This document shows positions 3,001-63,914 of a DNA stretch of 64,000 nt, piece after piece. The notes beneath the pieces are model-generated. The model was not told the origin of the DNA. It made no database searches and was given only the letters and a program-made list of their open reading frames with translations. Within the stretch, counting starts at the first letter, position 1. The number at the start of each line of letters is the position of its first letter. A program made the translations under genes and the position numbers. This stretch comes from Mycolicibacter virginiensis (GTDB lineage Bacteria > Actinomycetota > Actinomycetes > Mycobacteriales > Mycobacteriaceae). Where the stretch lies: positions 4,650,001-4,714,000 of the forward strand of contig NZ_CP092430.2 in assembly GCF_022374935.2 (NCBI RefSeq), in the 5' to 3' direction.

Positions 3001-4310
3001 GTGCCGACACCTGGCCGCCGATACCGTTGCCGCCGGTACCACCGTCGAGACCATCACCACCCGAGCCGCCGACCGCGATGCCAGAGGCTACTGAGCCTGC
3101 ACCGCCCGCCATGATCGCACCGTTGCGGGCGATGCCACCGGTACCGCCACCGGTCGCATTGCCACCGGCACCGCCGGTCGCAGTGCCGGACGCGGTGCCG
3201 CCGTTTCCGCCGAAACCACCGGGTTGTCCGTCACTCCAGGCCGCCTGGATACCACCGAGGCCCCCGGCACCGCCGACACTGCCGACACCGGTGGCAGTGC
3301 CACCGACCCCACCGGTCGCCGTGCCGGACGCGTCACCGCCGGTCCCGGAGCCTTCCAGGCCGGCATAGACCGCCCCGGCACCGCCGGCACCGCCAACGCC
3401 GCCATCGCTACCGGTACCGCCACTAGCGCCGGTGACCGTCGCGTCGTGGACGAGGCCACCCTGCCCTGAGCTCGCATACCCGCCGCCTCCGGCACCACCC
3501 GTGCCGCCGGTGCTGCCGGCGCCGCCGACACCACCGGTGACGATGGCGTTATCAACGCTGCCACCCGAGTTGGCCTCGACCGTCGCGCCACCACCGACGC
3601 CGCCGGCACCGCCGTTGGCATCTCCGGTCCCGGCGTTGCCGCCGGTGGCCGAGCTGTCCCTGACGGTGCTGCCCGTCCCGTCAGCGGTGATGCTTGCCGC
3701 GCCACCGGCCGCACTGTCGCTGGCGTTGCCGCCGGCGGCCGAGACCGTGTCGATGACAGCGCCGTCAGTCGCGGTCACGCTGGCGCTGCCGCCTGCACCG
3801 CCCGAACCGCCATTGCCACCGGTGACCGTGGCGTTGGTGACCGTGCTGCCAAGACCCTCAGCGACAATGGCCGCCGCGCCACCGTCGAAGCCGTCGCCAG
3901 CGTTGCCACCGGTCACTGTGCTGCCAGCGACACTGCCACCGTTGCTGACCAGTAGCGAGGCGCCGCCGCCAAGTGCGTTATCGCTGTCTTGCCCGCTGGA
4001 CACCGTGGTGTTTTCGATGGAGCCGCCGCCGGCAGCGATCAGCGAGTTGCTGGCACCGTCCTCGCCGACAACCCCGCCCTGACCACCATTGCCGCCGTTG
4101 CCGCCGTCGACAGTGCCGTCTGTGATGGTGCTGCCCGGGCCGTCGGCGTGGATTGTCGCGCCGCCACCAGTACCGCCGTGGCCTCCGGCCGCGGTGGTGC
4201 TACCCGCGCCACCGTCGCCGCCCTTACCTCCGGTTGCGGTTCCGGTCGCGGTCCCGCCATTGGTGCCGCCCACGTAGGCGCCGCCGCCACCACCACCGCC
4301 GGCACCGCCG
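1..4310 (-). repeat. Beta-helix-like supermodules in PGRS-A
   Basis: From about 4310 leftwards the encoded protein leaves classic PGRS and becomes repeating rungs. Each rung has a short beta-prone stretch (VTA, IQA, LTV), a turn with Asn/Asp-Gly, a Ser/Thr-rich strand and a GGNAG/GGDGG closure. An ordered series of about a dozen rung types recurs, with restarts near 2590 and 1070. Examples are IQAAWSDGQPGG near 3220, VRAVGDDSTV near 2890 and YVQALGKDSSV near 1220. The rung order matches that of PGRS-B, so the arrangement predates their duplication. A right-handed beta-helix fold is an inference from this pattern. Confidence 0.65.
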
Positions 4311-7300
4311 AAGCCGGCGTCCGCGCCGGCGCTCAGGGCGCCACTACCGCCGACACCGCCGGTACCGCCGATCGCGCCAACGCCGTTGCCGGCACCGGTA
4401 CCGCCGGCACCGCCGTTACCACCCTTCCCAGCCGCTCCGCCATCGACAGCCGCACCACCGAGACCACCGGTGCCGCCGGTACCACCGGCTTGGCCGAGCA
4501 GCCCATCGCTGCCGACACCACCGCCGTCGCCACCCTTGCCGCCGTTGCCGCCGTCGCTGGTCGCGCCCGACGTCGAGCCGGCCGCACCGTCGGCGCCGGC
4601 CGTGCCCGAACCAGTACCGGAAGCGCCGCCTCCACCGACCGCACCACCGGCGGCGCCGTTACCACCGTTACCGCCTGCGCCCGCGGTGTCTCCGCCACCT
4701 CCGCCGGCGCCATCACCGCCCGTGCCGGCCGTTCCTGCGTTGCCGCCGTCACCACCGGCACCACCATTGCCGTTGACGACGCTGCCGTCACCACCCGTGC
4801 CGCCCTTGCCGCCGGCTCCACCCGTTCCGGCGTTGCCGCCATTACCACCGGAGTCGTCGCCGCCGGTGGCGCTGAAGCCTTCGCCGCCGTTACCGCCAGA
4901 ACCACCGGCACCGCCTTGGCCTCCAGTGCCACCGACGTTGCCGGTTCCGCCCGCACCGCCGGTTCCACCGACGCCACCGGCGCCACCGTGACCGCCGTCG
5001 GGATCCCCGTCGACTCCTGCCAGACCGTTGTAGCCCTGGCCACCGGCACCACCGGCACCACCGTTACCGCCGTTGCCCTGGGCGGCGTGGCTGCCATCGG
5101 TTTCCAGACCACCCAGGCCGCCGTTGCCGCCGTTACCACCGGCTTGGCCGGCGCCTCCGTCGACGTTCGTGCCATCACCGGCGGCCCCGGCCGCACCGTC
5201 TTTGCCGTCGCCGCCGTTGCCACCGACACCGGCCGCGCCGTCAGCGCCACGGCCGCCACCGACTAGGAGGCCACCCTTGCCGGCGTTGCCGCCCAGGCCA
5301 CCGTCGCCACCGGAGGTGCCAGCCGCAGCAGCACCATCGGAGGCCGCGTCATACCCGGCGCCACCAGCGCCGCCGTCGCCGCCCTTACCGGCCGCACCGT
5401 TGCCGCCCGACGCGGCCTGGACCCCGCCACCGGAGAGACCACCGGCGCCACCAGCACCGGCATTACCACCGTCGCCGCCGTTGCCACCAGTACCGCCGGT
5501 GGTGTTGACGGCGTCACCGGCCGTCCCGATCGCGCCGTTGGCGCCGTCGGTGCCCGAGCCGCCCTTGCCGCCGACACCGCCGGCGCCGTGGATGCCGGCC
5601 GTCGAACCTGTACCGGCAACACCACCGTTGCCACCGGCGCCGCCGTTGCCTCCGGACGTGCCCGCCGCCGCACCAGCACTGACCGCGTCATAGCCGGCGC
5701 CACCGGCACCACCGGCACCACCGTTACCGCCCTTGCCCGACGCGGCATGGCTGCCATCGGTCTGCAGCCCACCCTGGCCACCGTTGCCGCCGTTACCGCC
5801 GGAGGTGCCGGCCGTGCCGTCGACGCTGCCTGCGGTGCCCGCCGTGCCGGCAGCACCCGCCTTACCCGAGCCGCCATTGCCGCCGACGCCGGCGGCGCCG
5901 TCCGCGGCACGACCACCACCGACCTGCAAGCCGCCCTGACCGGCGTTACCACCGACACCACCATTGCCGCCGGAAGTGCCCGCGGCCGCACCGGCGTCGC
6001 TGGCGGCGTCATACCCGGCACCACCGACCCCGCCGTTGCCGCCCTTACCGGCCGCACCATTGCCACCCGACGCGGCCTGGACCCCGCCACCGGAGAGACC
6101 ACCGGCGCCACCAGCACCGGCATTACCACCATTGCCACCATTGCCACCGGCACCGCCGGTGGTGTTGACAGCATCCCCGGCCGTCCCGATCGCGCCGTTG
6201 GCGCCGTCGGTGCCCGAGCCGCCCTTGCCGCCGACACCGCCGGCGCCGTGGGTGCCGGCCGTCGAACCCGTACCGGCAACACCACCGTTGCCACCTACCC
6301 CGCCGTTGCCACCGGACGTGCCCGCCGCCGCACCAGCACTGACCGCGTCATAGCCGGCGCCACCGGCACCACCGGCACCACCGTTACCGCCCTTGCCCGA
6401 CGCGGCATGGCTGCCATCGGTCTGCAGCCCACCCTGGCCACCGTTGCCGCCGTTACCGCCGGAGGTGCCGGCCGTGCCGTTGACGTTGACCGCGTCACCC
6501 GCCGTGCCGGCAGCACCCGCCTTACCCGAGCCGCCATTGCCGCCGACGCCGGCGGCGCCGTCCGCGGCACGACCACCACCGACCTGCAAGCCGCCCTGAC
6601 CGGCGTTACCACCGACACCACCATTGCCGCCGGAAGTGCCCGCGGCCGCACCGGCGTCGCTGGCGGCGTCATACCCGGCGCCACCGACCCCGCCGTTGCC
6701 GCCCTTACCGGCCGCACCGTTGCCGCCCGACGCGGCTTGGACCCCGCCACCGGAGAGACCACCGGCGCCACCAGCACCGGCATTACCACCATTGCCACCG
6801 TTGCCACCGGCACCGCCGTCGGGATTCAGCGCACTACCGGCCGTGCCGATGGCCCCGTTGGCGCCGTCGGTGCCCGAACCGCCCTTGCCGCCGATCCCGC
6901 CGGCGCCGTGCGTGCCGGCCGTCGAACCCGTACCGGCAACACCACCGTTGCCACCTACCCCGCCGTTGCCTCCGGACGTGCCCGCCGCCGCACCAGCACT
7001 GACCGCGTCATAGCCGGCGCCACCGGCACCACCGGCACCACCGTTACCGCCCTTGCCCGACGCCGCGTGGTTGGTCCCATCGGCCTGCAGACCACCCTGG
7101 CCGCCGTTACCACCGTTGCCACCGGAGGTGCCGGCCGTGCCGTTGACGTTGACCGCGTCACCCGCCGTGCCGGCGGCACCCGCCTTACCCGAGCCGCCAT
7201 TACCACCGACGCCCGCGGCGCCGTCCGCGGCACGACCACCACCGACCAGCAGGCCACCCTGACCGGCGTTACCACCGGAACCACCATTACCGCCGGAGGT

Positions 7301-9829
7301 CCCAGCCGCAGCCGCAGCATCGGAGGCCGCGTCATACCCGGCGCCACCAGAGCCGCCGTTGCCACCCTTGCCGGCCACACCGTTGGTGCCCGACGCGGCG
7401 TGGTTACCGCCACCGGAATCACCACCGGCGCCACCAGCACCGGCGTTACCACCATTGCCACCGTTGCCACCGGCACCACCGTCGGGGTTCAGTGCGCTAC
7501 CGGCCGTACCGATCGCGCCGTTGGCGCCGGCGGTGCCCGAGCCACCGTTACCCCCGACACCACCAATACCGTGCAGCCCCGTAACCGAGCCGGTTCCTCC
7601 CGCGCCACCGTTACCGCCGGCGCCGCCGGCGCCACCATCGCTGCCCGGGCCCGCCCCCGCGGCTACCGCGTCCCACCCGGCGCCGCCCTTGCCGCCCGCA
7701 CCACCGTCGCCGCCAACACCATCCGCAGCCCGGGAGGTGCCGTCCGCCTCCAGACCGCCCTGCCCGCCGTTGCCACCACGGCCACCGGCTTGACCGGCCG
7801 TTCCGTCGATGTGGTTGGCATTCCCATCGACCCCGTGGGCGCCGTCCTTGCCGTCGCCTCCGTTGCCGCCGATCGCGGCGACGCCGGAGGTCGCGCGCGA
7901 TCCGTCGGCTTCCAGACCCCCGAGGCCCGCGTTACCGCCGGCGCCACCGTTGCCGCCGGCCGTGCCCGCGAGCGCGCCGGGGTCCGTGGCCGCGTCATAG
8001 CCGTTGCCACCGACGCCTCCGTCGCCGCCCTTACCGGCCGAACCGTGGGTGCCCGACGCGGCGTGGTTGCCGTTACCGGAATCGCCACCGGCGCCACCGA
8101 CGCCGGCGTTGCCGCCATTGCCGCCGTTACCGCCCGCGCTGCCGTTCATGGTCGATGCCGTGCCCGTGACGCCCGCCGCACCGTCACCGCCGTCGGTACC
8201 GGAACCACCGTTGCCTCCGACGCCGCCGGCACCATGCGTACCGGTAGTGGCGCCGGTTCCGCCGACACCACCATTGCCGCCCGCACCGCCGTGGCCGCCC
8301 GAGGTGCCCGCCGCCGCACCGTCGGCGAGCGCGTCATAACCGCGACCACCCTGGGCACCGTCACCACCGTTTCCGCCGCCGCCTTCGGCGGCGCGCGTGA
8401 CGCCATCGGCCTCTAGGCCGCCCTTACCGCCGTTGCCACCGGCGCCACCGTTACCGCCGGCCGCGCCATCGTGCGACAGCGCGCTGCCGTCGGCGCCGGC
8501 GTAGCCCGCTCCACCATTGCCACCCCGGCCGCCGGTACCGGCTGTACCGCCGGAGCCGCTGGCTGCCTGACCACTGGCGCCTTGGCCACCGGCACCGCCC
8601 TGACCCGCGTTGCCGCCGGCGCCACCGGTTTGGCCGGCGAACCCGTCGACATGCGAGGCGTTGCCGTTGGCGCCGTCGGCACCGTCGGCGCCATCGCCAC
8701 CGACGCCGCCGTTGCCACCGATCGCCCCGTCACCCTGACCACCCGCGACGCCGGCCGCACCCGAGTCTGCGAACCAGCCACCGGCACCACCCGCGCCGGC
8801 CTTACCGGCGGCACCACCGTTACCGCCGACACCACCATTGCCGCCGCTGATCGCATCAACGTGGCTGACGGTGCCGTCCTGGCCATCAGCGCCGTGGCCG
8901 CCGATACCACCGGCGGCACCCGTACCACCGGAACCACCCTTACCGCCGTCACCGAACCAGTTCGAGCCGCGGCCGCCGGCACCACCATTGCCGCCGGCGC
9001 CACCGTTTTGACCCGCGCCACCATCGGCGCCGGCCAACACACCAGCCAACCCCGCCGCGCCGACCGCACCGTCACCGCCGGTACCGCCGGCACCGGCCGT
9101 GCTCCACAACGCCCACAGCGCGGCGTCGCCACCGACACCACCGGCGCCGCCGTCGCCGCCCGCGGTGACCGCGGTTCCACCGTCACCGCCGTCACCGCCG
9201 TGGCTCAGCCAGGCGAACCAGCCGGCGGCACCGCCGTCGCCACCGGCACCGGTGTCAAACCCGTCGCCGCCGTGACCACCGTTGCCGCCGAACAGGCCGC
9301 CCTGACCGCCCGCACCACCGTCGTAGACGCCGCCCGACCCATCGGCGTCCCATCCCGCGCCGCCGCTGCCGTAGATCCAGCCGCCGGCGCCGCCGTCAGG
9401 GTTCACGGCCGTGCCATCAGCGCCGTTACCGAACGGCATGAACCAGTTGATCTCGCCCCAGTTGAACGACGCGGCCGCAGAACCCGGCCAGCTGAAGTCA
9501 GCCGCCCCGATGTTGAGGTTCAGGTCAGCGAGCACTGCATCCCAGGTGGCTGGATCGCCCCACGAATCGAAGACCCCGTCCCAGCTGGCCGAGTCCAAGA
9601 CGACGCCCCAGGCAGCCTGATCACCCCAGTTGATACTGAGGTCCGCGACGGCCGTGCCCAGGTCCTGACCGAACAGGTCCACCCACATGTCTTCGATATC
9701 CGCCTGCGCGGTAGGCGCCGCGGCGAGCGGCCCCAACCCAAACGCGAGAAACGCGCTCACTGCGGTTCCCGAGCCCAACGCCCGGCTGCTGCGACGACTC
9801 TTGAAACGACTCTGACGGTAGCGAGACAT
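1..9829 (-). CDS. PGRS-A: secreted giant PGRS plus beta-helix-like repeat protein (C-terminus outside window)
   Basis: The frame is open from the ATG at 9829 to the left edge with no stop, giving about 3276 residues. The start is supported by AAGGGG 8 nt upstream. The product is probably exported: an Arg-Arg pair (12-13), a hydrophobic stretch (about 21-34) and AQA before Asp44. Residues 44-140 are Trp-rich (NWGDQAAW, NWGEINW) and lead into GNGADGT and glycine repeats to about residue 1840. The remainder changes character, with rungs such as STVRDSSATGGNAG and VTATDGAVID. Three supermodules start near 4300, 2590 and 1070; the last leaves the window. By comparison with PGRS-B, I infer that only a few hundred residues are missing. 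It is a paralogue of PGRS-B. No PE domain is present. Surface location is inferred; the molecular function is unknown. Confidence 0.85.
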   Translation of the reverse strand, partial: MSRYRQSRFKSRRSSRALGSGTAVSAFLAFGLGPLAAAPTAQADIEDMWVDLFGQDLGTAVADLSINWGDQAAWGVVLDSASWDGVFDSWGDPATWDAVLADLNLNIGAADFSWPGSAAASFNWGEINWFMPFGNGADGTAVNPDGGAGGWIYGSGGAGWDADGSGGVYDGGAGGQGGLFGGNGGHGGDGFDTGAGGDGGAAGWFAWLSHGGDGGDGGTAVTAGGDGGAGGVGGDAALWALWSTAGAGGTGGDGAVGAAGLAGVLAGADGGAGQNGGAGGNGGAGGRGSNWFGDGGKGGSGGTGAAGGIGGHGADGQDGTVSHVDAISGGNGGVGGNGGAAGKAGAGGAGGWFADSGAAGVAGGQGDGAIGGNGGVGGDGADGADGANGNASHVDGFAGQTGGAGGNAGQGGAGGQGASGQAASGSGGTAGTGGRGGNGGAGYAGADGSALSHDGAAGGNGGAGGNGGKGGLEADGVTRAAEGGGGNGGDGAQGGRGYDALADGAAAGTSGGHGGAGGNGGVGGTGATTGTHGAGGVGGNGGSGTDGGDGAAGVTGTASTMNGSAGGNGGNGGNAGVGGAGGDSGNGNHAASGTHGSAGKGGDGGVGGNGYDAATDPGALAGTAGGNGGAGGNAGLGGLEADGSRATSGVAAIGGNGGDGKDGAHGVDGNANHIDGTAGQAGGRGGNGGQGGLEADGTSRAADGVGGDGGAGGKGGAGWDAVAAGAGPGSDGGAGGAGGNGGAGGTGSVTGLHGIGGVGGNGGSGTAGANGAIGTAGSALNPDGGAGGNGGNGGNAGAGGAGGDSGGGNHAASGTNGVAGKGGNGGSGGAGYDAASDAAAAAGTSGGNGGSGGNAGQGGLLVGGGRAADGAAGVGGNGGSGKAGAAGTAGDAVNVNGTAGTSGGNGGNGGQGGLQADGTNHAASGKGGNGGAGGAGGAGYDAVSAGAAAGTSGGNGGVGGNGGVAGTGSTAGTHGAGGIGGKGGSGTDGANGAIGTAGSALNPDGGAGGNGGNGGNAGAGGAGGLSGGGVQAASGGNGAAGKGGNGGVGGAGYDAASDAGAAAGTSGGNGGVGGNAGQGGLQVGGGRAADGAAGVGGNGGSGKAGAAGTAGDAVNVNGTAGTSGGNGGNGGQGGLQTDGSHAASGKGGNGGAGGAGGAGYDAVSAGAAAGTSGGNGGVGGNGGVAGTGSTAGTHGAGGVGGKGGSGTDGANGAIGTAGDAVNTTGGAGGNGGNGGNAGAGGAGGLSGGGVQAASGGNGAAGKGGNGGVGGAGYDAASDAGAAAGTSGGNGGVGGNAGQGGLQVGGGRAADGAAGVGGNGGSGKAGAAGTAGTAGSVDGTAGTSGGNGGNGGQGGLQTDGSHAASGKGGNGGAGGAGGAGYDAVSAGAAAGTSGGNGGAGGNGGVAGTGSTAGIHGAGGVGGKGGSGTDGANGAIGTAGDAVNTTGGTGGNGGDGGNAGAGGAGGLSGGGVQAASGGNGAAGKGGDGGAGGAGYDAASDGAAAAGTSGGDGGLGGNAGKGGLLVGGGRGADGAAGVGGNGGDGKDGAAGAAGDGTNVDGGAGQAGGNGGNGGLGGLETDGSHAAQGNGGNGGAGGAGGQGYNGLAGVDGDPDGGHGGAGGVGGTGGAGGTGNVGGTGGQGGAGGSGGNGGEGFSATGGDDSGGNGGNAGTGGAGGKGGTGGDGSVVNGNGGAGGDGGNAGTAGTGGDGAGGGGGDTAGAGGNGGNGAAGGAVGGGGASGTGSGTAGADGAAGSTSGATSDGGNGGKGGDGGGVGSDGLLGQAGGTGGTGGLGGAAVDGGAAGKGGNGGAGGTGAGNGVGAIGGTGGVGGSGALSAGADAGFGGAGGGGGGGAYVGGTNGGTATGTATGGKGGDGGAGSTTAAGGHGGTGGGATIHADGPGSTITDGTVDGGNGGNGGQGGVVGEDGASNSLIAAGGGSIENTTVSSGQDSDNALGGGASLLVSNGGSVAGSTVTGGNAGDGFDGGAAAIVAEGLGSTVTNATVTGGNGGSGGAGGSASVTATDGAVIDTVSAAGGNASDSAAGGAASITADGTGSTVRDSSATGGNAGTGDANGGAGGVGGGATVEANSGGSVDNAIVTGGVGGAGSTGGTGGAGGGGYASSGQGGLVHDATVTGASGGTGSDGGVGGAGGAGAVYAGLEGSGTGGDASGTATGGVGGTATGVGSVGGAGGLGGIQAAWSDGQPGGFGGNGGTASGTATGGAGGNATGGGTGGIARNGAIMAGGAGSVASGIAVGGSGGDGLDGGTGGNGIGGQVSALADGANANGEAYGGSGGDGIGAGSKGGDGGLGWVRAVGDDSTVTGAQSSGGNGGTGSDGLTGGNGGQAYVQANSDNSTSTDSSAAGGSGGDSADGVNGGNGGRATNFLGAEGANPGTGNDHITDSHVTGGNGAAGSVGGAGGIRASNGSTIESSSATGGNASAGAGGGAASVTADDGSTITNSHVTGGNGGGEGGGSGFARGFGILAVDGTDGVGGAASVSATNGGVVNDATAVGGNGGIGTDGGVGGAGGAATVRADDGGEVTVGHAIGGNGGVGNAGGTGGVGGAASVGAYGSQTTTEGTAQGGDGGTGENGGTAGAGGAASVDAGINDAGQIVGSDEHTSGNATGGVGGLADGAGSTGGTGGVAIVRAPDGTVGIAGDPDQVQAIGGAGGVGTTGGHGGNGGAGFAFVGNGGTVGNAGVATVAQGGAGGAGVDGGTGGNGSYAQVTAGQDGTAFGSSTAGAGGTGTGAGSLGGNGGSANIQGAYASGGLGGAGGTAQGVATGGAGGDAVGAGKGGAGNTGSIVAGGVGAQGSGSAHGGNGGDGLDGGTGGRGFTGQVGALNEGATANGTVTAGDGGDGTGVGAVGGQGGYTYVQALGKDSSVTGVTATGGDGGAGVPGANGRVASDTVIIARGEGDTITNSQVTGGNSAGTQQSPGARIDVNGGHVADSSVTAGQSTDTTLGGSGSLTVTGGGTVTDTHITGGNAGTGTGKGGGATVTVTGGTVNGLEVDGGNGGVNGAGGSATATVSSGSSVSHSSVTGGDGGTGGSGLGGNASLVATDGSNVSDSHVTGGAGSDTAAGGAANIMAGGTLPTLATPAVGVDRLGGDVTNVTVTGGDAGFGDDLGGKGGAGGYASVASQLDGSVHDAQAIGGNGGDGYDGGKGGAGGYSELWTIYQENAHTSHAGGDVTGKALAGVGGDGTGGGSVGGLGGSARIATGSYYVDGGSAAGTIYGGSGGNATADAFGHGGTGGNASGGRIYAAGDGATVDANTVVTGGN
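5263..7600 (-). repeat. 660-bp tandem repeats in PGRS-A
   Basis: About three and a half copies of a 660-bp (220-residue) unit run head to tail. The 60-base stretches at 5701, 6361 and 7021 start identically, and those at 5761/6421, 5881/6541 and 5941/6601 match over their full length. The period keeps the reading frame. Each unit encodes one cycle of GG-X blocks punctuated by GYD(A)-type islands and DGTA-type turns. The near identity implies recent duplication or gene conversion, and copy number may vary between strains. Confidence 0.85.
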
Positions 9830-10210: not shown

Positions 10211-13200
10211 TTACGGGTTATTCGCGCCGTTGGTGCCGGTGGCGGTCTGACCGTCCGCGTTCTGAGTGTTGACCGCGTAGACATTGCCTTCAGAGCCGTT
10301 GCCGCCGGTGGCACCGGTACCGGTGCCACCCTTGCCGCCGGTGGCCGTGGCGTTGTCGGCTGACGGGTGGTCGGCCGGGGTGCCGGTACTGTCGAGCCCC
10401 GCCGCGACATTGCCATCGGCTCCGGCACCGCCGGTGCCGCCATTGGCACCGGTGCCGCCGTTGCCGCCGGTAGCACTGCCGCCGGTAGCACTGCTGTTCT
10501 CGCCCAGCGCGTTGACCCGGCCGTATCCCGCATTGCCGCCCTGGCCATCGTTGCCGACACCGCCGGTGCCGCCGTTCGCAGTGCCGCTGGCGACGGCATC
10601 GTTCCCACCGGCCGCGATGCTGGCCTTACCGCCATTACCGCCGATTCCGCCGTTGTAGGCGGCGCCACCGTCGCCGCCCGTCGACGTGCCGCTGGCCGTC
10701 CCGCCATTGCCACCAGCGTTCGGGTTGCCGAAGAAGAAGGTGGTCTTGGAGCTCTGGATGTCGGAGCTTCCACCGTTACCGCCGACGCTGCCCGTCCCGG
10801 TGGCCTCACCACCCGAACCACCGGTGGAGGTGCCGTAGGAGTTGCCTCCCGGACCGTTGGACTCGAGCTCACCCCAGGAGCCCGTACCGCCGTGACCTCC
10901 GTAGTTTCCGGCGCCGCCATCACCGCCGATCGCGATAGCGGCGTTGCCGCCCCCACCAACCGAGCCTCCGTCGACGTCTACGAGTAGCTCGCCCTTCCCA
11001 CCGTCACCGCCCGTCCCGGCATTGCCGAGCCCGCCGGCGCCGCCGTACGCCTCCCCGGTGATGGTGCTGCCGACCCCGGTCGCTCCGGCCACGGCGACGC
11101 CGCCGCCGCCACCCGTGCCGCCGGCTTGGCCATAACCACCGTCGCCACCCTTGACGGTGGTGTCGGTGATCTGTGCCCCGTCGATCGCCGTGATGCCGGC
11201 CGCGCCGCCATCACCAGCCGTGGCACCGACCGAGCCGTCGGTGTCCCCCGCGTTGCCGCCGGTCGCGTGGCTGCCGGAGATCAGGCTGCCGTTGCCGATG
11301 GCGCTCAGGGTCGCCGCACCACCGGCAGCGGTGTCGCTGGCATTGCCACCGGTGACCGAGCTGCCGCTGATGACGCCGCCGTCGCTGACGGTCGCCGTAG
11401 CGGCACCGCCGGCGAAGTTCGCGGTGTTGTGGCCGTTGGTGATGGTCGTGTCTACGACCTGGCTGCCGGCACCGTCGACGGTCAGCGAGTTGTTCGCACC
11501 GTTGGCACCGTTGGCGCCGTTGGGCCCTCCGTCGACACCTTGGCCACCGTTGACGTGGCCGCCGTCGATGACGCCGTCGTTGAGGGCGGACATCGTCGCG
11601 GATCCGCCACCACCACCGTTGCCACCGGCCGCGGTGGCCGAACCTGCGCCACCGTTGCCACCGTCGCCGCCGATCGCGGAACTGTCGGAGGAGATGGTGC
11701 CGCCGGTGCTGGTGGACAGGCTGGCCGCGCCACCGTCTCCACCCTTGCCACCGACGAATCCGGTGCCACCGTCTCCACCCGTACCGCCGTTGCCACCGGT
11801 GACGGTGCCGCTGGTGGTGCTGCCGCCGCTGATGCTCGCGGTGCCGCCGTTACCGCCGGCACCGCCGTTGGCGCCATTGCCGCCGGTCCCACCGTCGCCG
11901 CCGTTGCCGCCGTTGATGCTGAGCCCGTCGTAGTTAGTGCCTGCACCCACGTTCAGCGTCGTACCGATTCCGGTGCCACCCTTGCCACCGATGCCGCCGT
12001 TGGTTCCGGCCGCGCCGCCGTCGCCGCCGTCACCGCCGGACACCTGGCCGTTGGCGAAGCTGCCGCCACCTGCCACGTTCAGCGTCGCGACACCGCCGGC
12101 GCCGCCGAGGCTGCCGCCGGTACCGGCACCGGCATCGCCGGCTTGAACCGTGGTGTGGCTGACGCTGGTACCGCTCCCGTCGGCCGTGATCGTGGCACTG
12201 CCACCGATCGCGGTGTCGCTGTTCTGACCGCCGATGGCGTGACTTTCGGAAATGACGCCGCCGTCGGTGGCAGTCACCGTGGCGTGACCACCCAAACCTG
12301 CGGTCCCACCGTCGGCGCCGATGGCAGAACTGTCGGTGATGGTCCCGTTGGTCGCCTGGAACTGCCCATGACCGCCGGCGACGGTGCCTGCGGCGTCGCC
12401 GCCGACGGCGGTGGCACCGGAGATGTTGCCGCCGCTGGCGGGGTCCCCGTAGTTCCCGGAGAACACGTAGGCCTGGCCACCCAGGGCACCGGTAGCGCCG
12501 ACAACGTCCCTGTCGCCACCCTTACCGCCCGTGGCCGAACTGTCGATGGCCGTACTGCCAGTCCCGTTCGCCACAATCCGGCCCTGACCGCCGTACCCGG
12601 CGTGGCCGCCGTTGGTCGCCGTACCGCCGTCGCCGCCCGTTGCGGTGCCAGACGCCTCGCTGTTCACACCGAAGGCCTGGATGTTGCCGATCGTGCCGTT
12701 GCCACCGATGCTGCCCGCACCGGTGCCGGTACCGCCATTACCGCTGTTCGCGGTGCCGCTGGCCTGCGCCCCGGCCGCGAAGGCGCCCACCTGACCGCTG
12801 CTGCCATTGCCGCCGGTGCCGCCCGCTAGACCGGCGCCGCCGTCACCGCCGATGCCCTGCCCGGTGGCCACCGCGCCGGTTCCGCCGGCGACCACACTGC
12901 CGATACCGCCGTTGCCACCGGTGCCGCCGCCGGTGGCGTCGGCACCGCTACCGCCCTTCGCGGTTCCGCTGGCCGAACCGTCGTTACCGCCGATGCCGGT
13001 CCGGACGAAGCCAGCCTGAATATTGCCGCTTCCGCCGTTGCCACCGGTGCTGCCGACGCCGGTGCCCTTGCCGCCGAGGCCGCCGGTCGCGTCGCCGGTA
13101 GCGGTGCCACCGGTGCCGCCCTCCACACCGGCGGTCACAGCGGAGTAGCCGCCGAGGCCGCCTTTGCCGCCCGCTTCGCCAATGCCACCGGTGCCCCCCG

Positions 13201-15160
13201 TCGAAGTGGCCGCACTGACGGTGCCGCCCAGTGCCGCGGCGATGTCGGAGTCAGCACCCTGGCCACCGACGCTGCCTGCACCGTCTCCGGTGCCGCCGTT
13301 ACCACCGGTTGAGGTGCCACCGACGGTGCTATCGGTGCCGCCGGCGGTGACCCGGCCAGCGCCACCGACGCCGCCGGCGCCACTGTTGTTTCCGGCGCCG
13401 CCGTCGCCACCGACGGCGTAGCCGTCGGTGATGGCGCCGCCCGCTGTGGCGGTGACGCTGGCGTTACCGGCGTTGCCGCCGGTGCCGCCGGTGGCGTCGC
13501 CCACCCCCGCCTTACCGCCCGTGGCTGAGCTGTCGGTGATGCTGCTGTTGGCGCCATCGGCCGTGAGGCTGGCCGATCCGCCGTTGGCGGTGGCGTTGCT
13601 GTCCTGACCGGTGGCCTGGCTGCCGGAGATGCTGGCGCCGTTGGTGGCCTGCAGCAGTGCGGTTCCGCCATTGTGGCCGGCTGCACCGTCCCCGCCGGTG
13701 GCTCCGCTGTTGGTGATGGTGTCGCCGCCGGAGGTCACCGTGTTCGGGTCACCGGCGAAGACCTGTGCCCGACCGCCTTGACCACCGTCGACCCCGTTGG
13801 CGCTGTCACCGCCCTTGCCGCCGTCCGCGGTGCCGTTGGTGATCGTGTCTCCCGTGGCGTTGGTCTGCACGTACGCCTGACCGCCCGCGCCGCCGGCCTT
13901 GCCGGCGCTGCCCGCACCGCCGTCACCACCGGTGGAGCTGCCGTTGGTGATGGTGCTGTCCTGGGCCAGCGCGCGGACCCATCCCAGGCCACCGTCGCCG
14001 CCCTTGCTGCTCGGCCCGTCACCGTCACCACCGTTGCCGGCCTGGCCGGTCCCGCTGGCGTACGTCCCGTCGCCCAGCGCCGCCACCTGGCCGTTCTGGC
14101 CGTTACCGCCGGTGCCGCCGTTGAGGCCTTGGCCGCCGTTACCGCCGTGGCCGGTGCCGCTGGCCTCCGCACCGGTGCCGCCGGCGTTGATGCTGCCGTA
14201 GCTGCCGTTGCCGCCGGTGCCGCCACCGGTGGCGGCGCCCCCGGCGCCGCCGATCGCGGTGCCGTGCGCGGTGCCGCCGGGCCCGCCCAGGCCGCTGTGC
14301 GCCTCGCCGGCATCGATACCGCCGTTGCCACCCTTGCCGCCTTGGCTGGTGGCATCGGTCCCGGTGCCACCCGTGCCACCGGTGGCCTGACCGTACGAGG
14401 TGCCGTCCTGGTGTGCTTCGACGCCGCCGAGGCCACCCTTGCCGCCGGTACCACCGTTGTCCCCGGTGCCACCGGAACCGCCGGTAGCGGTGGTGGCGGG
14501 TGCACCCACGGCGGGGTCGTCGATGACCTTGCCGCCATCGGTCGCCGAGATGTAACCGGTGTTGCCGTCGCCGCCGATACCACCGGCTTTACCGGCACCG
14601 CCGTCACCGCCGGTCGCGGTACCGGTGGCCGCACTGCCGGCACCGTCGGCCGTGACGGTGCCGATTCCGCCGCCGCCACCGGTTCCGCCATTGCTGCCGT
14701 CACCGCCGGTACCACCGTTGGCGGTGCCGCCGTCGACGCTGCCGCCGTTGGTGGCGCCCACGACTGCCGCACCGCCCGCACCTCCGGCGCCGCCGTTGGC
14801 GTCACCGACGCCGGCGTTGCCACCGGTCGCGGAGCTGTTGGCGACGGTGCTGTTGGTGCCATCGGCGGTGATGCCCGCGGCGCCGCCGGCCGCGCTGTCG
14901 CTGCCATCGCCACCCTTGGCGTGACCGTCGGAGATGCTGCCGCCGTTCGTTGAAGTCAGCGAGGCAGCGCCACCGGCACCGCCGGCGCCGGCGTTACCAC
15001 CGGTCACCGAGCTGTCGGTGATGGTGCTGCTGGCGTCGATGGTGACCGTCGCGCTGCCACCGGCGAACTCGTCCGTCGAATTGCCGGCCTGGATCGTCAG
15101 GTTCGTGACGTTGCCGTCGACGATGACATCGGCCACGCCACCGGTCAGCCCGGCCGCACC
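10211..15160 (-). repeat. Three beta-helix-like supermodules in PGRS-B
   Basis: Supermodules begin near 15155, 13680 and 12385 (about 490, 430 and 725 residues). Each passes through matching rungs in the same order. One aligned triplet reads IDAGEAHSGLGG / IQAGFVRTGIGG / IQSSKTTFFFG. Another reads INAGGTGAEASG / VVAGGTGAVATG / IAAGGNDAVASG. The junctions are alike: a QAYV-type rung, then a VFAGD or VFSGN rung, then a QATNG rung that starts the next module. The third module carries extra rungs near its start. The repeated order shows tandem duplication of a large folded unit, not random low complexity. Confidence 0.7.
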
Positions 15161-18100
15161 CGGTGCGGTCGCGGTGCCGTCGCCACCGTCGCCGCCATTA
15201 CCACCGGTCGCGGTGACGCCGCTGGAGGATCCGCTGCCGCCGACGTGGGCACCGCCACCGCCGCCGCCACCGCCACCGCCGTAGCCGATGCCGCTGCCGA
15301 GCCAACCCGCGCCACCGCTACCGCCGTCGCCACCGACCGCGCCGGTGCCGACCGAGGCACCCGAGCCACCGGCGCCGCCTGCGCCACCCTCGGCGCCCAC
15401 GCCACCGTTACCGCCGTTGCCGCCGGTACCACCGGACTGCGGGGTGGAGCCGCTCATACCGATGCCATCGCCACCCTGGCCGCCGTTACCGCCGGCACTG
15501 CTCGTGCCCGCCGTGCCGGCCGCTCCGTTACTGCCGGTGGTGCCGCCGCTGCCGCCGGCGCCCGCAGCGCCAGCCGCGCCACCGTTGGCGCCGTTGCCGC
15601 CGTTGCCGCCGTTGCCCGCCAGCAGGCCGGTGCCGCCGTCCGCACCGGCGCCGCCACTGCCGGCCGTGCCGGCGCCGCCGCCGGTACCACCGTTGCCGCC
15701 CTGGCCGCCTGCGCTGCCCGATAGTCCGGTGCCGCCCTTGCCGCCGCCGCCACCGGCACCGCCGGCGCCGGCGTTGCCGCCGCTGCTGCCCGCCGCACCC
15801 GCTGTGGTCGCGTCGACGCCGTTGCCAGCGTCACTGCCGTGACCGCCGCGGCCGCCGCTGCCGCCGGCACCACCGCCGTTGCCGTTGCCACCGGCACCGC
15901 CTACACCACCGTTACCGCCGGCCACGCCGTCGGCGCCGTCCGGAGCACCGGTAGTACCCCACGTGGCGTTGCCACCGGCACCGCCGTTACCGCCGCCGCC
16001 GCCGGCAGCTGTGGTGCCGGTACCGCCGACGCCACCGCCGCCGCCGTTACCCGCGATGCCGCCGGTGGCGGTACCGCCGGCACCGCCGTCGCCACCGTTG
16101 CCGGCGGCACTGCTGCTACCGGCCTGGTTGCCGCCGGCGCCACCGGCGCCGCCGTTACCGGATTGACCCGGGTGGTAGTCGTCGGGGGTGGCGCCGAGGT
16201 TGGTGCCGACCCCGCCATCGCCGCCCGCACCGCCCTTGCCGCCATTGCCCGCAGCAGTGGTGACCGAGCCATCGGCGCCCTTACCGCCCGCGCCGCCACT
16301 GCCGGCCCAGCCGCCGGTGCCCTGTCCGCCGTTCTGGCCACCGTCGGTGCCTGCACCGCCCTGACCGCCGGCGCCACCGTCGCCGCCGGCGCCTCCATTG
16401 CCACCGTCAAGACCACTGCCGGCCGCAGCATTGGCGCCGCTACCGCCGCCGAGGGCCTGGCCGCCCTGGCCGCCGCGACCGCCGTTGCCACCGCCGACAC
16501 CATTGATGCCCTGACCACCGACACCACCGTTACCGCCGGCGCCACCGTTGCCGGCATCGCCCCCGTCAAGGTTGGTGGCGGTGCCGCTGGCACCGCTGCC
16601 GCCCTGGCCACCGCGGCCGCCCAGGCCGCCGTCGCCACCGTGGCCGTTGGCACCGTCCGCACCGCCGTCAACTCCGGCCCCACCGGCCCCGGCCTTGCCG
16701 CCAATGCCACCGTCGGTCGCGGCGCCGCCGTCCATGCCGCTGCCGGCAGCGGCTCCACCGCCGGTGCCACCTTCACCGCCTTCACCGCCGCTACCGCCCG
16801 CGCCACCGCTACCACCGCTGGTGCTGTCGGCGCCGTGTCCGCCACCACCACCGGTGCCACCGTTACCGCCGGCACCTGCCGCGCCGGCATCCCCGGGGGT
16901 AGTGCCCTGGCCGTAGCCGCCGTGACCACCGTGACCACCGACGCCACCGTCGCCGGCGGCACCACCGGTGCCCCCGATGACGCCGTCGCCGCCGAGGCCA
17001 CCGTTACCACCGTTTCCGGCAGCAGCGCCGGCTCCGCCGTCAGCACCGAGATCAGTACCCCAGCCGCCGCGGCCACCGTCTCCACCGAGACCGCCCTCGC
17101 CACCGGTGCCACCGGTACCCGCGTTGGACGCACCGCCTGCACCACCCAGACCGCCGTCGCCACCGGTCCCAGCGGTCCCACCGACCAGGTTGTAGTCGTA
17201 CCCGTCATAGGTGTGGCCGATGTTCTGGCCGATACCGCCCCAGCCACCGGTGCCACCCTGGCCGCCCGCACCACCGGCACCACCGTCGCCGGTAGCGCCC
17301 GTCGCGGCACCACCGCCACCGCCAGATCCGCCCTTACCCGCAGCGCCACCGAGCCCGGTGGTGTCACCTCCGTGACCGTTCTGGGCGCCGCCCTGGCCAC
17401 CGTTACCGCCGGCACCGCCGGCACCACCGGTGCCGCCGTCGCCGGTCGCGTTGTCCGCGCCAGCGGAACCCGCACCACCGTTGCCGCCGGCGCCACCGTT
17501 GCCCGAGGACCTCAGGCCGTAGTAGCTGTTCGTGCCGGTGTTGCCGCCGTTACCACCGGCGGCACCGGCCTGACCGGTGCCATCGGCGTAATGGCCGACG
17601 CCGTCACCACCGTTACCGCCGTTACCGCCGTCGCCGCCGAGTCCGACCGCACCGTGCTCGCCGTCGGCGGCATTGGTGCCGTCGCCGTTGTCGCCACCGG
17701 CTCCACCGGCGCCGCCCTTGCCAACCAGACCACCGATGCCACCGTCGCCACCCTTGCCGGCGGCAATGTTCGAGGCGGCATCACCGTCGCCGCCGTCGCC
17801 ACCGTTACCACCCTTACCGGCCGTACCACCAGAACCGCCGGCACCACCGACGCCACCAGCACCGTGCTGGCCGGTACCGCCGCCGCCTGCCGCACCGGCT
17901 GCACCACCGGCACCACCGGCACCACCGTTGCCGCCATCGGTGGAGTTACCGCCCGTGCCACCATTACCGCCGGCCACACCGGTGTTGCCGGAGTTGTCGG
18001 TGCCCGCCGCACCGTCGGCACCGGAGCCACCCTGACCACCAGTGCCGCCTTCGCCGCCCTGACCGCCGCTGCCGCTGACGCCGGAGATCGCGCCACCAGC

Positions 18101-21100
18101 ACCACCGGTGCCGCCGGCGCCACCGTTACCACCGGCACCACCAGCGGAGACCGCCGACGCGCCTGCGGTAGCGCCACCGATTCCCGCCACACCGGTCGCG
18201 CCCTTGCCGCCAGCACCACCGGTACCACCGTTGGCGCGCGAGCCACCGGCGCCACCTTCGCCGCCCTGGCCGCCGTTCTGCGCGGTCGTGGTGGCACCGA
18301 TGAGGCCGGATCCGTCGCCGCCGACGCCACCGTTGGCACCGATGCTGTCGGTCCCCGCGACACCGTCGCTGCCGTCGCTGCCGGCAGTGCCGGCTCCGGT
18401 ACCTGCCGCGCCGCCCTCGCCGGCAAGGCCGCCGTCGGCACCGTCACCGCCTCTACCACCGCTGCCGGCGTTGGTACCGCCACCGCCACCGGCTCCATTG
18501 CCAGCGCTGCCGGCCGTACCGGCGTTACCACCACTGCTCCCGTTGCCGCCGTTGCCGTTGACGGCGCTACCGCTGCCGCCGTCGCCACCGTCGGCACCGT
18601 TGCCACCAGCACCGGCGTTGCCGCCGTCACCGCCATCGCCACCACTCCCGGCCGTGGCGCTGACACCCGATCCTCCGTTACCGCCGACACCGGCGGTGCC
18701 GGCATTGCCGCCCTTGCCACCGATGACACCGTCACCGCCCTTGCCACCGGCGCCAGCGTTGCCGCCGGCACCGCCGGACGTGCCGCTGTCGCCGGGATTG
18801 ACGCCAGAGACACCGGACACACCGGTGGCGCCGTTACCGCCCGCGCCGCCGTTACCGGCCTGACCCGGGTGGTAGTCGTCGATCGTCGCGTAGTCGTTGG
18901 TGCCGGCACCGGCGTTACCGCCGTCGCCGCCCTTACCGCCGCTGCCGCCGGCCAGGCCGCTGCCCGCGGCGGCCGTGCCACCGTTGCCACCCTGACCGCC
19001 GTTGCCGGCCCAACCACCGGTGCCCAAGTGTCCGTTGGCGCCGCCGTCGGTACCAGCTCCGCCCTGGCCTGCGTCGCCGCCGTTGCCGCCGGCGCCACCA
19101 TTGCCGCCGTCGAGGCCGCTGCCGCCAGGGGCGTTAGCACCGCCAGCTCCATTACCGCCCTGGCCGCCCTGGCCACCCCGGCCGCCGTTACCGCCACCGA
19201 CACCGCCGATGCCCTGACCACCGGCACCACCGTTGCCAGCTTGGCCACCGTTGCCGCCGTCCAAGCCGTTGCCGAGCGCGTCGCGGTTGCTGTTCGGCGC
19301 GCCCTGACCACCCCTGCCGCCCAGGCCACCATCGCCACCGGTGCCGTTGGTGCCGGTGGTGCCGCCTCCGTTCCCGGCACCGCCGGCCCCGGCATTACCA
19401 CCGTCACCACCGTCGGTGCCGACACCACCATTACCGCCGCTGTTCCACTTCGCGACGCCACCGGTGCCGCCCTCGCCACCGGTGCCACCGGAGCCACCTG
19501 CACCGCCGCTGGTGGCGTTGGTGCCGACACCGGCGTCACCACCGGTACCACCGTTACCGCCGCTGCCGGCCCGGCCGGCGTCCATACCGTCAAGGCCGCC
19601 CGGGTAGTTGCCGGAGCCGCCGTGACCACCGTGGCCACCGACACCGCCGTTGCCGGCGTTACCGCCGTCGGTGGCAATCAGGCCAGAACCACCGGCACCG
19701 CCATTGCCGCCATTACCGGCGTCGCCGCCGACACCGCCGACACCGTCCGCACCGCCCGCGTCACCACCGGTTCCGGCACGGCCACCGTCGCCGCCGTCGC
19801 CGCCGTTACCGGCCTTGCCGGCATCACCCTGGACCCCGGTGTTTCCGGTGCCGTTGTTCAACGCGCCCGCAGCGCCACCATTACCACCGGCACCGCCGGC
19901 GCCACCGATGCCGCCGGCACCGCCGTTGATGTTCGCCGTCGGATACAGAGCGCCGACCGCGTGGTCAGCGCCCCAACCGCCGTCGCCGCCGTCGCCGCCG
20001 TCGGCACCGGCGCCACCCTTGCCACCGCTACCGGCGTTGCCGGCCACCGCACCGCTGGCACCGCCGGCGCCGCCGTTGCCGCCAGCGCCACCGGCCTGGC
20101 CGGCACCGCCAGCACGACCGGCGTCCGTGGCCGGAAGGTGCTGCGCAGGATCGTTGACGTTGCCGACGCTCTCGCCATTGTCACCGGCCACACCGTTGCC
20201 ACCCGCACCGCCGTTGCCACCGCTGCCGCGGCTACCGCCGTCCCCGCCGGCACCGCCATTACCGCCCCGGTCCCCGGCGTTGACGCCGTTGAAGCCGTCG
20301 CCACCCTGACCACCGCTGCCGGCGATGCCGGTGATCTCGGTGCCATCCGTTCCGGCCCCGCCGTTGGTGGAACCCGTTCCCGCAGTACCGGCCTGACCCG
20401 CCGCGCCGACCTCGCCGCCCTTACCGCCGCTACCGCCATCGACATGGGTCGCGGTACCGTCCGCGCCCTGACCGCCATCACCGGCCGTGCCGGCATTGCC
20501 GCCATCGCCGGCGTCGCCGCCGACACCGGTGGCACCGTTGGAGCCGCCACCGGTCGACGTACCACCCACGCCGCCCTTACCACCATTGCCGCCGGAGCCG
20601 CCATTGCCGCCGGAGCCACCCGCCTGACCACTTCCGCTGCCACCGTTGGCGAAGGTGCCGACGGCACCGGTCACCCCGTCGCCACCGCTACCCCCATTGC
20701 CGGCGTTGCCACCCGCACCACCGGCGCCGCCGACGTTGCCTGTGCCACCAGCTCCGCCATCGCCACCAGCGCCGCCCGAGCCGCCGTTTTGGCCGGATTC
20801 ACCGGCGTTAGCACCACTGGCACCGACATACCCGGCGCCGCCCTCACCACCGGCACCACCATCGCCACCGTCACCCTGCGCGGCGTGGGTAGTGCCATCG
20901 GCTTCGAGACCGCCCGTGCCACCGTTACCACCGGCGCCACCCTTACCGCCAGCCGTGCCGTCCGGGTCGGCCTGAGTGCCCGCGTCACCCGCGGCCCCGA
21001 CCGCACCGTCGCCGCCGTTGCCACCCACACCGGCCGTGCCGTCCGCGGCGTGCCCGCCCCCGACCTCGGCACCGCCATGCCCCGCGTTACCGCCGACACC

Positions 21101-24100
21101 ACCATTGCCACCGGAGGTGCCCGCTGCAGCACTGCCATCGGTGGCCGCGTCGTAGCCAGTGCCACCGACGCCACCGGAGCCGCCCGTGCCCGCCGAACCA
21201 TTCGTGCCCGACGTGGCGTGGTTGCCGCCACCGGAGTCGCCACCGGCGCCACCGGCACCGGCGTTACCGCCATCGCCACCATTGCCACCGGCACCACCGG
21301 TGCGATCCTCGGCAGTACCTGTGGTTCCGACTGCGCCATCGGCGCCGTTGGTACCCGAACCACCATTGCCGCCGACGCCACCGACACCGTGCGCACCCGG
21401 GTTGGCACCCGTACCGCCGACGCCACCATCACCACCTGCGCCACCGTTGCTGCCGGAGACACCCGCACCCGCGCCCGCAGCCACCGCGTCGTAGCCGGCA
21501 CCACCCTTGCCGCCGGCCCCACCATCGCCACCATCACCCTGCGCGGCATGGGTGGTGCCATCAGCTTCCAGACCACCCTGGCCACCGTTACCGCCCGCGC
21601 CACCTGCGCCACCGGCGGTGCCGTCAATGTTGGGTGCGGTACCGGCCGCACCGTCGGCGCCGTCCTTGCCGTCTCCGCCGTTGCCACCCACGCCGGCGGT
21701 GCCGTCGGCGGCATGGCTGCCCCCGACCTCTGCGCCGCCGTGCCCGGCGTTGCCGCCGACACCACCGTTGCCACCGGAGGTGCCCGCAGCAGCACTGGCA
21801 TCCAAAGCAGCGTCATAGCCCGTACCACCGGCGCCACCGGAGCCGCCCTTACCGGCCGAACCATTGGTGCCCGACGTGGCGTGGTTGCCGCCACCGGAGT
21901 CGCCACCGGCGCCACCGGCACCGGCGTTACCGCCATCGCCACCATTGCCACCGGCACCACCGGTGCGATCCTCGGCAGTGCCCGCGGAACCCGTGGTGCC
22001 GTTGGCGCCATCGGTACCCGAACCACCAGCGCCACCCACACCGCCGGCACCGTGGGCGCCCGCGGTGGCACCACTACCACCAGCGCCGCCGTCGCCACCA
22101 ACACCGCCGTTGGTGCCCGAGGTGCCCGGTGCGGCAACCTCGGTGACCGCGTCGTAGCCGGCACCACCCTTGCCGCCGGCACCGCCGGCGCCGCCGGCAC
22201 CGTCAGCGACGCGAGTGCTGCCATCTGCCTTCAGGCCGCCCTGGCCTCCGTTACCACCGGAACCGCCGGCACCACCATTGCCACCGGCCACGCCCGCGGT
22301 GTGACTGTCCGCACCGGCGTAGCCCGCACCGCCCTGACCACCGACACCACCAACACCGGCCGTGCCGTCCGTTCCGTTGCCGGCCTGGACACCGGCACCA
22401 CTGAGACCACCGCTGCCGGCCTTGCCCGCGTTACCACCAGCGCCACCGTTACCACCGGCGGTGCCATCCACATGACTGGCCGTGCCGTTGGTGCCGGCCG
22501 CACCTGCGGCACCCGCACCACCGTTGCCGCCGTTGCCCCCGACCCCGCCGAGACCGGCCGCACCGTTGTTGGTGCCATGCCCACCGACGCCCCCGGTACC
22601 ACCGTCGCCGCCGATACCACCGTTGGTACCAGTGGCGCCCGCCGTGGCCCCGGCCACGCCATTGCCACCATTGCCACCCTTGCCGCCGGCACCACCGACA
22701 CCACCATCGCCCTGGGCAGCACGGGTCCCGTCGGTCTGCAGACCGCCCTGACCACCGTCACCACCGGCTCCACCGGCGCCACCGTTGGTGCCATCGATAC
22801 GTCCGACGCCGGTGTTGGAGCCATCGCTACCGTCAAAGCCCTTGCCGCCGGCACCGCCCTTACCGCCGACACCGGCCGAACCGTCACTGCCGCCGGCAGC
22901 CTGAGTTCCATCGCCGTTGTCGCCGCCGGCCCCACCCTTGCCGGCATTGCCACCCGCACCACCGGCCTGCCCGGCCGCGCCGTCCACATGCGTGGCCGTG
23001 CCATCGGCGCCGTTGCCACCCGTGGCGCCATCACCACCAGAGCCGCCGTCACCGCCCGCACCGCCGAGGCCGTGAAGTCCCGCATTGGTACCGGTTCCGC
23101 CGACACCGCCGGCCCCACCGGCACCGCCGTTGCCGCCGTTCTCACCCGCGGCCCCCGCGGTCGCCCCATCCAGGCCTTCGTAGCCGGCCCCGCCCTTACC
23201 GCCGCCACCACCGTCGCCACCATCACCGCTGGCGGCACGGGTGTTGTCGACGTTCAGGCCGCCTTGGCCACCATTGCCGCCGGCGCCACCGGCCTGACCA
23301 GCTCCACCGTCCGGGGCAGCCTGTGTACCCACGGCACCGTCGGCACCGTCCTTGCCATCGCCGCCGTTGCCGCCAATACCAGCGGCACCGGAGGCCGCCC
23401 GAGAACCGTTGGCCTCGAGACCGCCCACGCCGGCGTTACCGCCGATACCACCGTTGCCGCCAGCGGTACCCGCGGCCGCGGCCAGGTCGGAGGCGGCGTC
23501 ATAACCACCCCCGCCAACGCCACCGTTACCGCCCTTACCGGCCGAACCGCTGACTCCGGTCGCAGCATGGTTGCCATTGCCGGAGCTACCACCCGCGCCG
23601 CCGACACCGGCGTTACCGCCGTTGGCGCCGTTGCCGCCCGCGCCGCCATCGGGGTGGGTGGCATCGCCTGCGTTGCCGGCGCCACCATTGGCGCCGTCGG
23701 TGCCTGATCCGCCCTTTCCGCCGACGCCACCGGTGCCGTGAGCGCCCGCCGTCGATCCGGTACCCCCGACACCACCGTCGCCGCCGGCACCACCATTGCC
23801 GCCCGAAACACCCGGCCCTGCACCAGCACCCAGCGCGTCATACCCGGCGCCGCCCTTGCCGCCGGCGCCACCGTCACCACCGACACCGTCCACAGCACGC
23901 GTGGTGCCATCGGCCTCAAGGCCGCCCTGTCCACCGTTGCCGCCGGCACCACCGGCGCCACCGGCCTTGCCGTCCGGACTCAGTGCGGTGCCCGCGGCAC
24001 CGGCCGCGCCGTCCTTGCCGTCGCCACCGTTGCCACCGGCGCCGGCCGTGCCCGCAGCTCCGCGCGTGGTGCCGTCGGCTTGCAGACCACCCAAGCCCGC

Positions 24101-25504: not shown

Positions 25505-25562
25505 GACGTCTCTCCCCTTAACTGACGCACAACGCAAGCACAGCTATCTCGCGTGGGAAGTT

Positions 25563-61426: not shown

Positions 61427-61464
61427 CGGAAATTTCTTCCATCTCGAGGTATCAAACGTTCGCG

Positions 61465-61493
61465 ACAGTACATGAGCAGCGTCACATTTCCAA
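61465..61493 (-). promoter_or_regulatory. Candidate promoter of P1
   Basis: On the minus strand, TTGGAA (61493-61488) and TACTGT (61470-61465) are 17 bp apart. The -10 fits the mycobacterial TAnnnT pattern and has TG upstream. The start codon is 39 nt beyond the -10. An alternative -10, TATATT, lies at 61497-61492 without a good -35. Confidence 0.4.
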
Positions 61494-61537
61494 TATAGAT
61501 TTCTCAGGCTCACAGGCGGATTTTTCAGGCACCAAAA

Positions 61538-61601
61538 GACAACGTTCGTAGTCAAATTTTCGACAACACGCGTAGTCACTAATCTGACAACATGCGTGGT
61601 C
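61538..61601. promoter_or_regulatory. Three tandem operator-like sites, 24-bp period
   Basis: Three 16-bp copies: GACAACGTTCGTAGTC (61538-61553), GACAACACGCGTAGTC (61562-61577) and GACAACATGCGTGGTC (61586-61601). Each is separated from the next by exactly 8 bp. Each copy is itself an imperfect palindrome (GACnAC, 4 bp, GTnGTC). They lie 112-175 bp upstream of P1 and 45 bp or more upstream of the candidate -35, a position suited to cooperative activation or to a repression complex. The binding protein is unknown to me and is not encoded nearby. Confidence 0.7.
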
Positions 61602-63871: not shown

Positions 63872-63914
63872 AGCCCAGCGCACCTACAGATCGAACGGAG
63901 TTGCTGCTGCTGAA

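Follow-up and report, generated by a model that had tools for sequence, protein, structure and literature searches.

PGRS proteins form a large class of mycobacterial surface proteins that is still poorly understood, and their repeats make sequence comparison difficult. The best points of comparison here are the PE_PGRS proteins, which have a PGRS part of glycine triplets and, in some members, a C-terminal domain that varies from one protein to the next (available portions of PMC9436101 and PMC10216338). In the same portion of PMC9436101, PGRS domains appear as flat sails on the mycomembrane, modelled as polyglycine-II sandwiches with the C-terminal modules as cargo; an excerpt of PMC10584680 terms a PE-PGRS model a new fold. 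An older idea took the PGRS repeats themselves to be a parallel β-roll or β-helix (PMC11939664, in part), and a possible β-helix is mentioned for the pentapeptide repeats of a different family, the PPE_MPTR proteins (PMC4858275, in part). Among the entries of PMC12209268 are two Mycolicibacter species, with zero in the final two columns. We analyzed a 64,000-nucleotide stretch of the Mycolicibacter virginiensis genome (contig NZ_CP092430.2, positions 4,650,001 to 4,714,000; hereafter the window) that encodes PGRS-B, a giant PGRS protein whose C-terminal domain is an ordered series of repeat units, here called rungs.

PGRS-B resembles the PE_PGRS proteins in its glycine triplets, the GGX pattern being visible in the translation. 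It differs in that searches revealed no PE domain (the N-terminal portion hit no family in Pfam and none in NCBIfam), and in its C-terminal domain, an ordered and probably β-helix-like rod of a kind not described in the portions of PMC9436101 and PMC10216338 cited above. PGRS proteins of Mycobacterium smegmatis and Mycolicibacterium, in which the PE domain is doubtful, share with PGRS-B the uncertain N-terminus and the occurrence of PGRS in non-pathogens; unlike PGRS-B, they are described with neither a rung domain nor a ten-glycine run in the available part of PMC11939664. A literature search of open-licence papers found none describing the rung domain, and within that scope the sequence-only reading, which knew of no description of this architecture, holds.

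PGRS-B is a single unbroken minus-strand frame at 10211–25537, with 5108 residues counted from a TTG; an ATG at 25504 is the likelier start. Its parts are as follows.

25358–25504, minus strand: N-terminus, a signal-peptide-like sequence (basic start, hydrophobic stretch, AHA-D).
15281–25090, minus strand: PGRS part of glycine triplets, 47% glycine over residues 151–3400.
15251–15280 (residues 3420–3429), minus strand: ten-glycine run joining the PGRS part and the rung domain.
15137–15250, minus strand: first rung (AHVGG...TATGG), outside the 46 numbered rungs; a strand begins here (residues 201–206 of a 520-residue model).
13664–15136, minus strand: block M1, rungs 1–14 (rungs 3–14 at 13664–14965), from self-alignment, with its own clade in the tree.
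12371–13663, minus strand: block M2, rungs 15–26, from self-alignment, tree and structure model.
11492–12370, minus strand: rungs 27–34, a possible partial fourth copy, in order with M1 rungs 2–10.
10214–11491, minus strand: block M3, rungs 35–46, reaching the C-terminus, from self-alignment and tree.
10214–10240, minus strand: C-terminal tail TGTNGANNP, with similar tails in many relatives.
10211–10213, minus strand: stop codon.

The rung domain starts directly after the ten-glycine run, so that the span marked in the sequence-only reading (residues 3460–5108) begins about 30 residues inside it. From residue 3451 onward glycine falls to 35%, and threonine, serine, valine and isoleucine rise. 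A manual split of residues 3468–5108 gave 46 rungs (mean 35.7 residues, range 25–47) and was steered in part by the motif [ST]A[TVIKN]GG, which occurs 17 times against a mean of 1.4 over 300 shuffles. A rung typically opens with a short strand-like stretch (x-x-V/I/L-x-A); after a turn comes a second such stretch, which ends in A-x-G-G, and then a glycine linker that is 17–19 residues long in 25 of 45 cases. The Ser/Thr ladder beside the second strand may be a glycosylation or water-ordering face. No two rungs are identical, and mean pairwise identity is 43% (24% outside the Gly-Gly columns).

The order of the rungs is conserved between blocks. Smith-Waterman alignment of M1 with M2 scored 1062, against a mean of 693 (standard deviation 50, maximum 843) when the rung order was permuted; the corresponding values were 823 against 605 (37, 736) for M1 and M3, and 730 against 581 (33, 704) for M2 and M3. 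None of 400 permutations reached the observed score for any pair, and shuffling residues within rungs (100 per pair) gave even lower scores. This self-alignment confirms the claim, made from the letters alone, that a supermodule of a dozen rungs recurs in order three times. Rung-level alignment of the whole region agreed (575 against 415, standard deviation 47, maximum 570; 0 of 500 permutations as high). The mean at a single offset of 12 was modestly significant, being equalled by the best offset in 26 of 2000 permutations; this test is weaker because the M1–M2 and M1–M3 offsets differ (12 and 33). The three blocks are not contiguous, since rungs 27–34 lie between M2 and M3. These rungs align in order with M1 rungs 2–10 (1 of 400 permutations as good), and so may be a partial fourth copy; against M2 and M3 they show no clear order (95 and 27 of 400 permutations as good). 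The matching junctions that had been noted, a VFAGD/VFSGN rung and then a QATNG rung, were found at two sites, residues 3926/3963 and 4358/4394, one closing M1 and the other M2; the junction is seen twice and not three times because M3 ends the protein.

The copies are only 48–54% identical to one another. In a tree of 29 segments M1, M2 and M3 fall into separate clades (100/99 each), the M2 clade comprising segments from M. senegalense, M. setense and two further genomes as well as two copies from PE-type proteins (L034 and L033). The underlying alignment held 30 hand-picked segments, most scoring above about 770, with three L037 segments in that range omitted; one row overlapping the same DNA was dropped for the tree, and three rows were flagged for composition. 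At the level of sequence, M1, M2 and M3 are thereby shown to be old duplications. The DNA is GC-rich and highly repetitive, and blocks do move: in Mycobacterium sp. UM_WGJ (L007, 5834–7441) the segment following M1 clusters with M1 and not M2, which suggests later movement of blocks by replacement or duplication. These properties might point to recent slippage or gene conversion, with an order that carries neither history nor function. We give that explanation almost no credence, given how far the copies have diverged and that each groups with counterparts from other species; recent slippage was rejected on these grounds, as the sequence-only reading had expected.

Within its own genome, the C-terminal part of PGRS-B matches itself, the neighbouring PGRS-A and one more protein, which has about 1546 residues. 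In the same Genome Taxonomy Database (GTDB) genus, matches were found in 5 of 21 genomes at an expectation value (E) of at most 1e-10, in 7 of 60 at 1e-20, and in 14 of 148 at 1e-20 with a 525-residue query around M2. Across the family, 2 of 81 genomes matched at 1e-10, namely the own genome and one of another genus; the latter match is weak (4e-12), and that genome too carries PGRS, ten glycines and rungs. These counts always include the own genome and come from overlapping samples, and only part of the candidates per genome was scored (e.g., 10 of about 40), so that weak relatives may be missed. Relatives include Mycobacterium sp. UM_WGJ, Mycolicibacter sp. MYC340, Mycolicibacterium setense and M. 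senegalense. The N-termini that precede the rung block are of at least three kinds. As a further likeness to PE_PGRS proteins, L034 carries a PE domain (Pfam PF00934, 6.1e-29) in the same frame as the rungs. In L033 (4817–8777), in contrast to the single frame of L034, the rung domain is in one frame and a PE-like start in another that overlaps it, possibly because of a broken gene or an assembly error. A third type of N-terminus (VGKHS... LGPDSPTMRSVTADV) precedes PGRS and rungs in L009, L010 and L035.

Rung order is also kept between species. The native order of M2 outscored 200 of 200 permutations against 12 of 15 segments; it was not superior for a second M. senegalense segment or for two PGRS-only controls. 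All of these, controls included, had been found through a native-order match, which biases the comparison somewhat toward that order. Rungs 20–28 keep 41–64% identity outside glycine, in the same order, across seven relatives, and identity is highest in rungs 21–25 and 28 (0.58–0.64). Rung 21 has a long conserved turn, which is most likely the contact site if the domain has one. This conservation is more than a pure spacer should need. It bears on the proposal that the domain is a mere spacer or antigenic cover, in which length and repetitiveness matter and the rung surfaces bind nothing particular; the low-complexity surface rich in Gly, Ser and Thr, the widely varying lengths of the frames that carry rungs and the suggestion that PGRS proteins act as immune decoys (PMC9436101, in part) all fit such a role. 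On balance we think it unlikely, while giving it real weight.

AlphaFold2 predicted a strand-rich, repeating fold for the rung block, consistent with successive rungs of strands stacked in a coil, and not disorder or polyglycine-II alone; with the significant self-alignment, this means that neither outcome named in the sequence-only reading as counting against it was seen. The rung model superposes on solved β-helices, including the adhesin EtpA, alginate epimerases and tailspike depolymerases, and to this extent the earlier suggestion of a parallel β-helix is supported. Against it weighs the Foldseek search, in which the best match reached only 2.6e-3 with a template modelling (TM) score of 0.14 and no solved member matched at E ≤ 0.001. 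AlphaFold2 is, moreover, biased toward β-solenoids (PMC11795689), and the fold might be an artefact of this, the region being polyglycine-II or disordered like other PGRS sequence. That bias was shown for perfect repeats, whereas none of the 1035 rung pairs here reaches 70% identity. Furthermore, the same run predicted hardly any strands in the adjoining PGRS sequence, though its alignment was poorer there: the last 190 PGRS residues contain three isolated bridges, one 3-residue strand and one 2-residue strand, nothing more, with low predicted local distance difference test (pLDDT) values. An artefact therefore seems to us quite improbable. The last PGRS part superposes on a polyproline-II bundle, the antifreeze protein of the springtail Granisotoma rainieri (PDB 7jjv), with block means of pLDDT between 36 and 58; this animal protein resembles the PGRS part and not the rod. 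The idea of the PGRS part as a stalk was not borne out, given this low-confidence bundle-like model and the flat sails of the available portion of PMC9436101, and the binding tip that the same reading saw in the rung domain is conjecture.

The sequence searches tied PGRS-B to no known family. Pfam, NCBIfam, PDB sequences and the PDB profile search, the last of which had been suggested as a check, gave no match, and a large protein database returned nothing, possibly through a failure of word selection and bias correction when the sequence is rich in glycine. The β-helix adhesins EtpA, TibA and antigen 43 use other secretion routes. No sequence similarity to them was found by Pfam or by PDB sequence and profile searches, and PGRS-B differs from them in its rungs of about 36 residues with a glycine linker. 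Pfam recognised no family at all in PGRS-B at E ≤ 1, and thus no secretion domain or β-barrel of the autotransporter or two-partner-secreted kind. The epimerases and depolymerases among the superposed structures raise the thought of a lyase- or epimerase-type enzyme acting on envelope glycans. This is highly improbable in our estimation: the domain matches no Pfam or NCBIfam family, charged residues are few (27 D, 4 E, 5 K and 5 R in 525 residues) and EtpA outscores the enzymes in both superposition lists.

The boundary run varies little in length among relatives. Among 34 distinct contexts with at least seven glycines in glycine-rich frames, which include orthologues and so are not independent, 26 have exactly ten. 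Two have eleven (the usual next Ala being Gly), three read GGAGGGGGGG, one GGGGGGGAGS and one nine glycines plus Ala-Gly, and one is cut by the locus end. Their position at the PGRS/rung boundary was judged from the flanking letters; the junction alignment holds 20 of 21 listed junctions, and its row L033:6590–7675 starts with residues that look out of frame. Among the frames listed, no frame has more than one run of at least seven, and the window's five complete PGRS-only frames have none. Codons in the runs are mixed (GGC, GGT, GGG and GGA; 32 contexts), so the length is not maintained as a simple DNA repeat, and selection on the protein is the likelier cause. Twelve listed frames outside the window lack a run of seven or more: L036, a relative that does have rungs; the 1744-residue L042 frame, which is the end of PGRS-A, whose own run sits inside the window; and ten others, with or without rungs, several of them cut by locus ends. 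A G-A-N/D-x-P-like tail ends 20 of 25 closed frame pieces with a run and 5 of 14 without, by a loose pattern drawn up after inspecting the ends. The sharp boundary might serve as a sequence sign separating rod-bearing PGRS proteins from others.

We propose that PGRS-B is an exported surface protein with a PGRS anchor, a ten-glycine joint and a β-helix rod built from old block duplications, with a role in contact; as a whole, this has in our view an even chance of being right. The rung order, the age of the copies, the boundary run and the absence of a match to known sequence families are parts of it given directly by the data above. The signal-peptide-like N-terminus would export PGRS-B to the mycobacterial cell surface, where packed polyglycine-II helices of the PGRS part would hold it at the outer membrane. 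The fixed joint would link this part to a rigid rod of about 47 stacked rungs, carried as cargo. At the β-helix spacing of 0.48 nm per rung the rod would measure about 22 nm. Two β-strands per rung would stack on those of the neighbouring rung, with the glycine linker closing the turn as a putatively polyglycine-like wall. Slippage would have had no part in the growth of the rod, which would come from old duplications of a block with about twelve distinct rungs; the conserved long-turn rungs would most likely project to touch surfaces or other cells. By likeness of shape to β-helix adhesins, the likeliest role is aggregation or attachment. More tentatively, and a little short of an even chance, the domain may represent a new mycobacterial surface-domain family: a hybrid rod with two β-strands and a polyglycine-II wall per coil, which a fixed ten-glycine helix would join without a break to the polyglycine-II PGRS part. 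On this reading the blocks, each of about twelve rungs, arose by duplication in an ancestor and have been shuffled among proteins of the PE and signal-peptide types. For an ordered, conserved domain outside the searched sequence families, one twelve-rung block (about 430 residues) offers a defined piece for expression and structure determination.

Elsewhere in the window, a minus-strand gene at 61973–63883 encodes a fatty-acyl-AMP ligase-like protein (Pfam AMP-binding, 3.6e-70; NCBIfam matches fell below their cut-offs among the matches listed). Two minus-strand frames, 56943–59207 and 59240–61579, encode proteins made up of GLGxxxLxxLL-like repeats, and neither protein matches a Pfam or NCBIfam family at E ≤ 0.01. 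A 2622-residue open frame on the plus strand (15839–23707) is antisense to the PGRS part of PGRS-B and most likely just a side effect of the GC-rich triplet repeats. The minus strand from 2 to 56890 carries seven giant frames of PGRS type, clustered in tandem and with starts that resemble signal peptides; the following neighbour is one of them.

2–9829, minus strand: PGRS-A, of the same build as PGRS-B (PGRS, boundary run, rungs), with the run GGAGGGGGGG at 4280–4309; it extends past the window edge.
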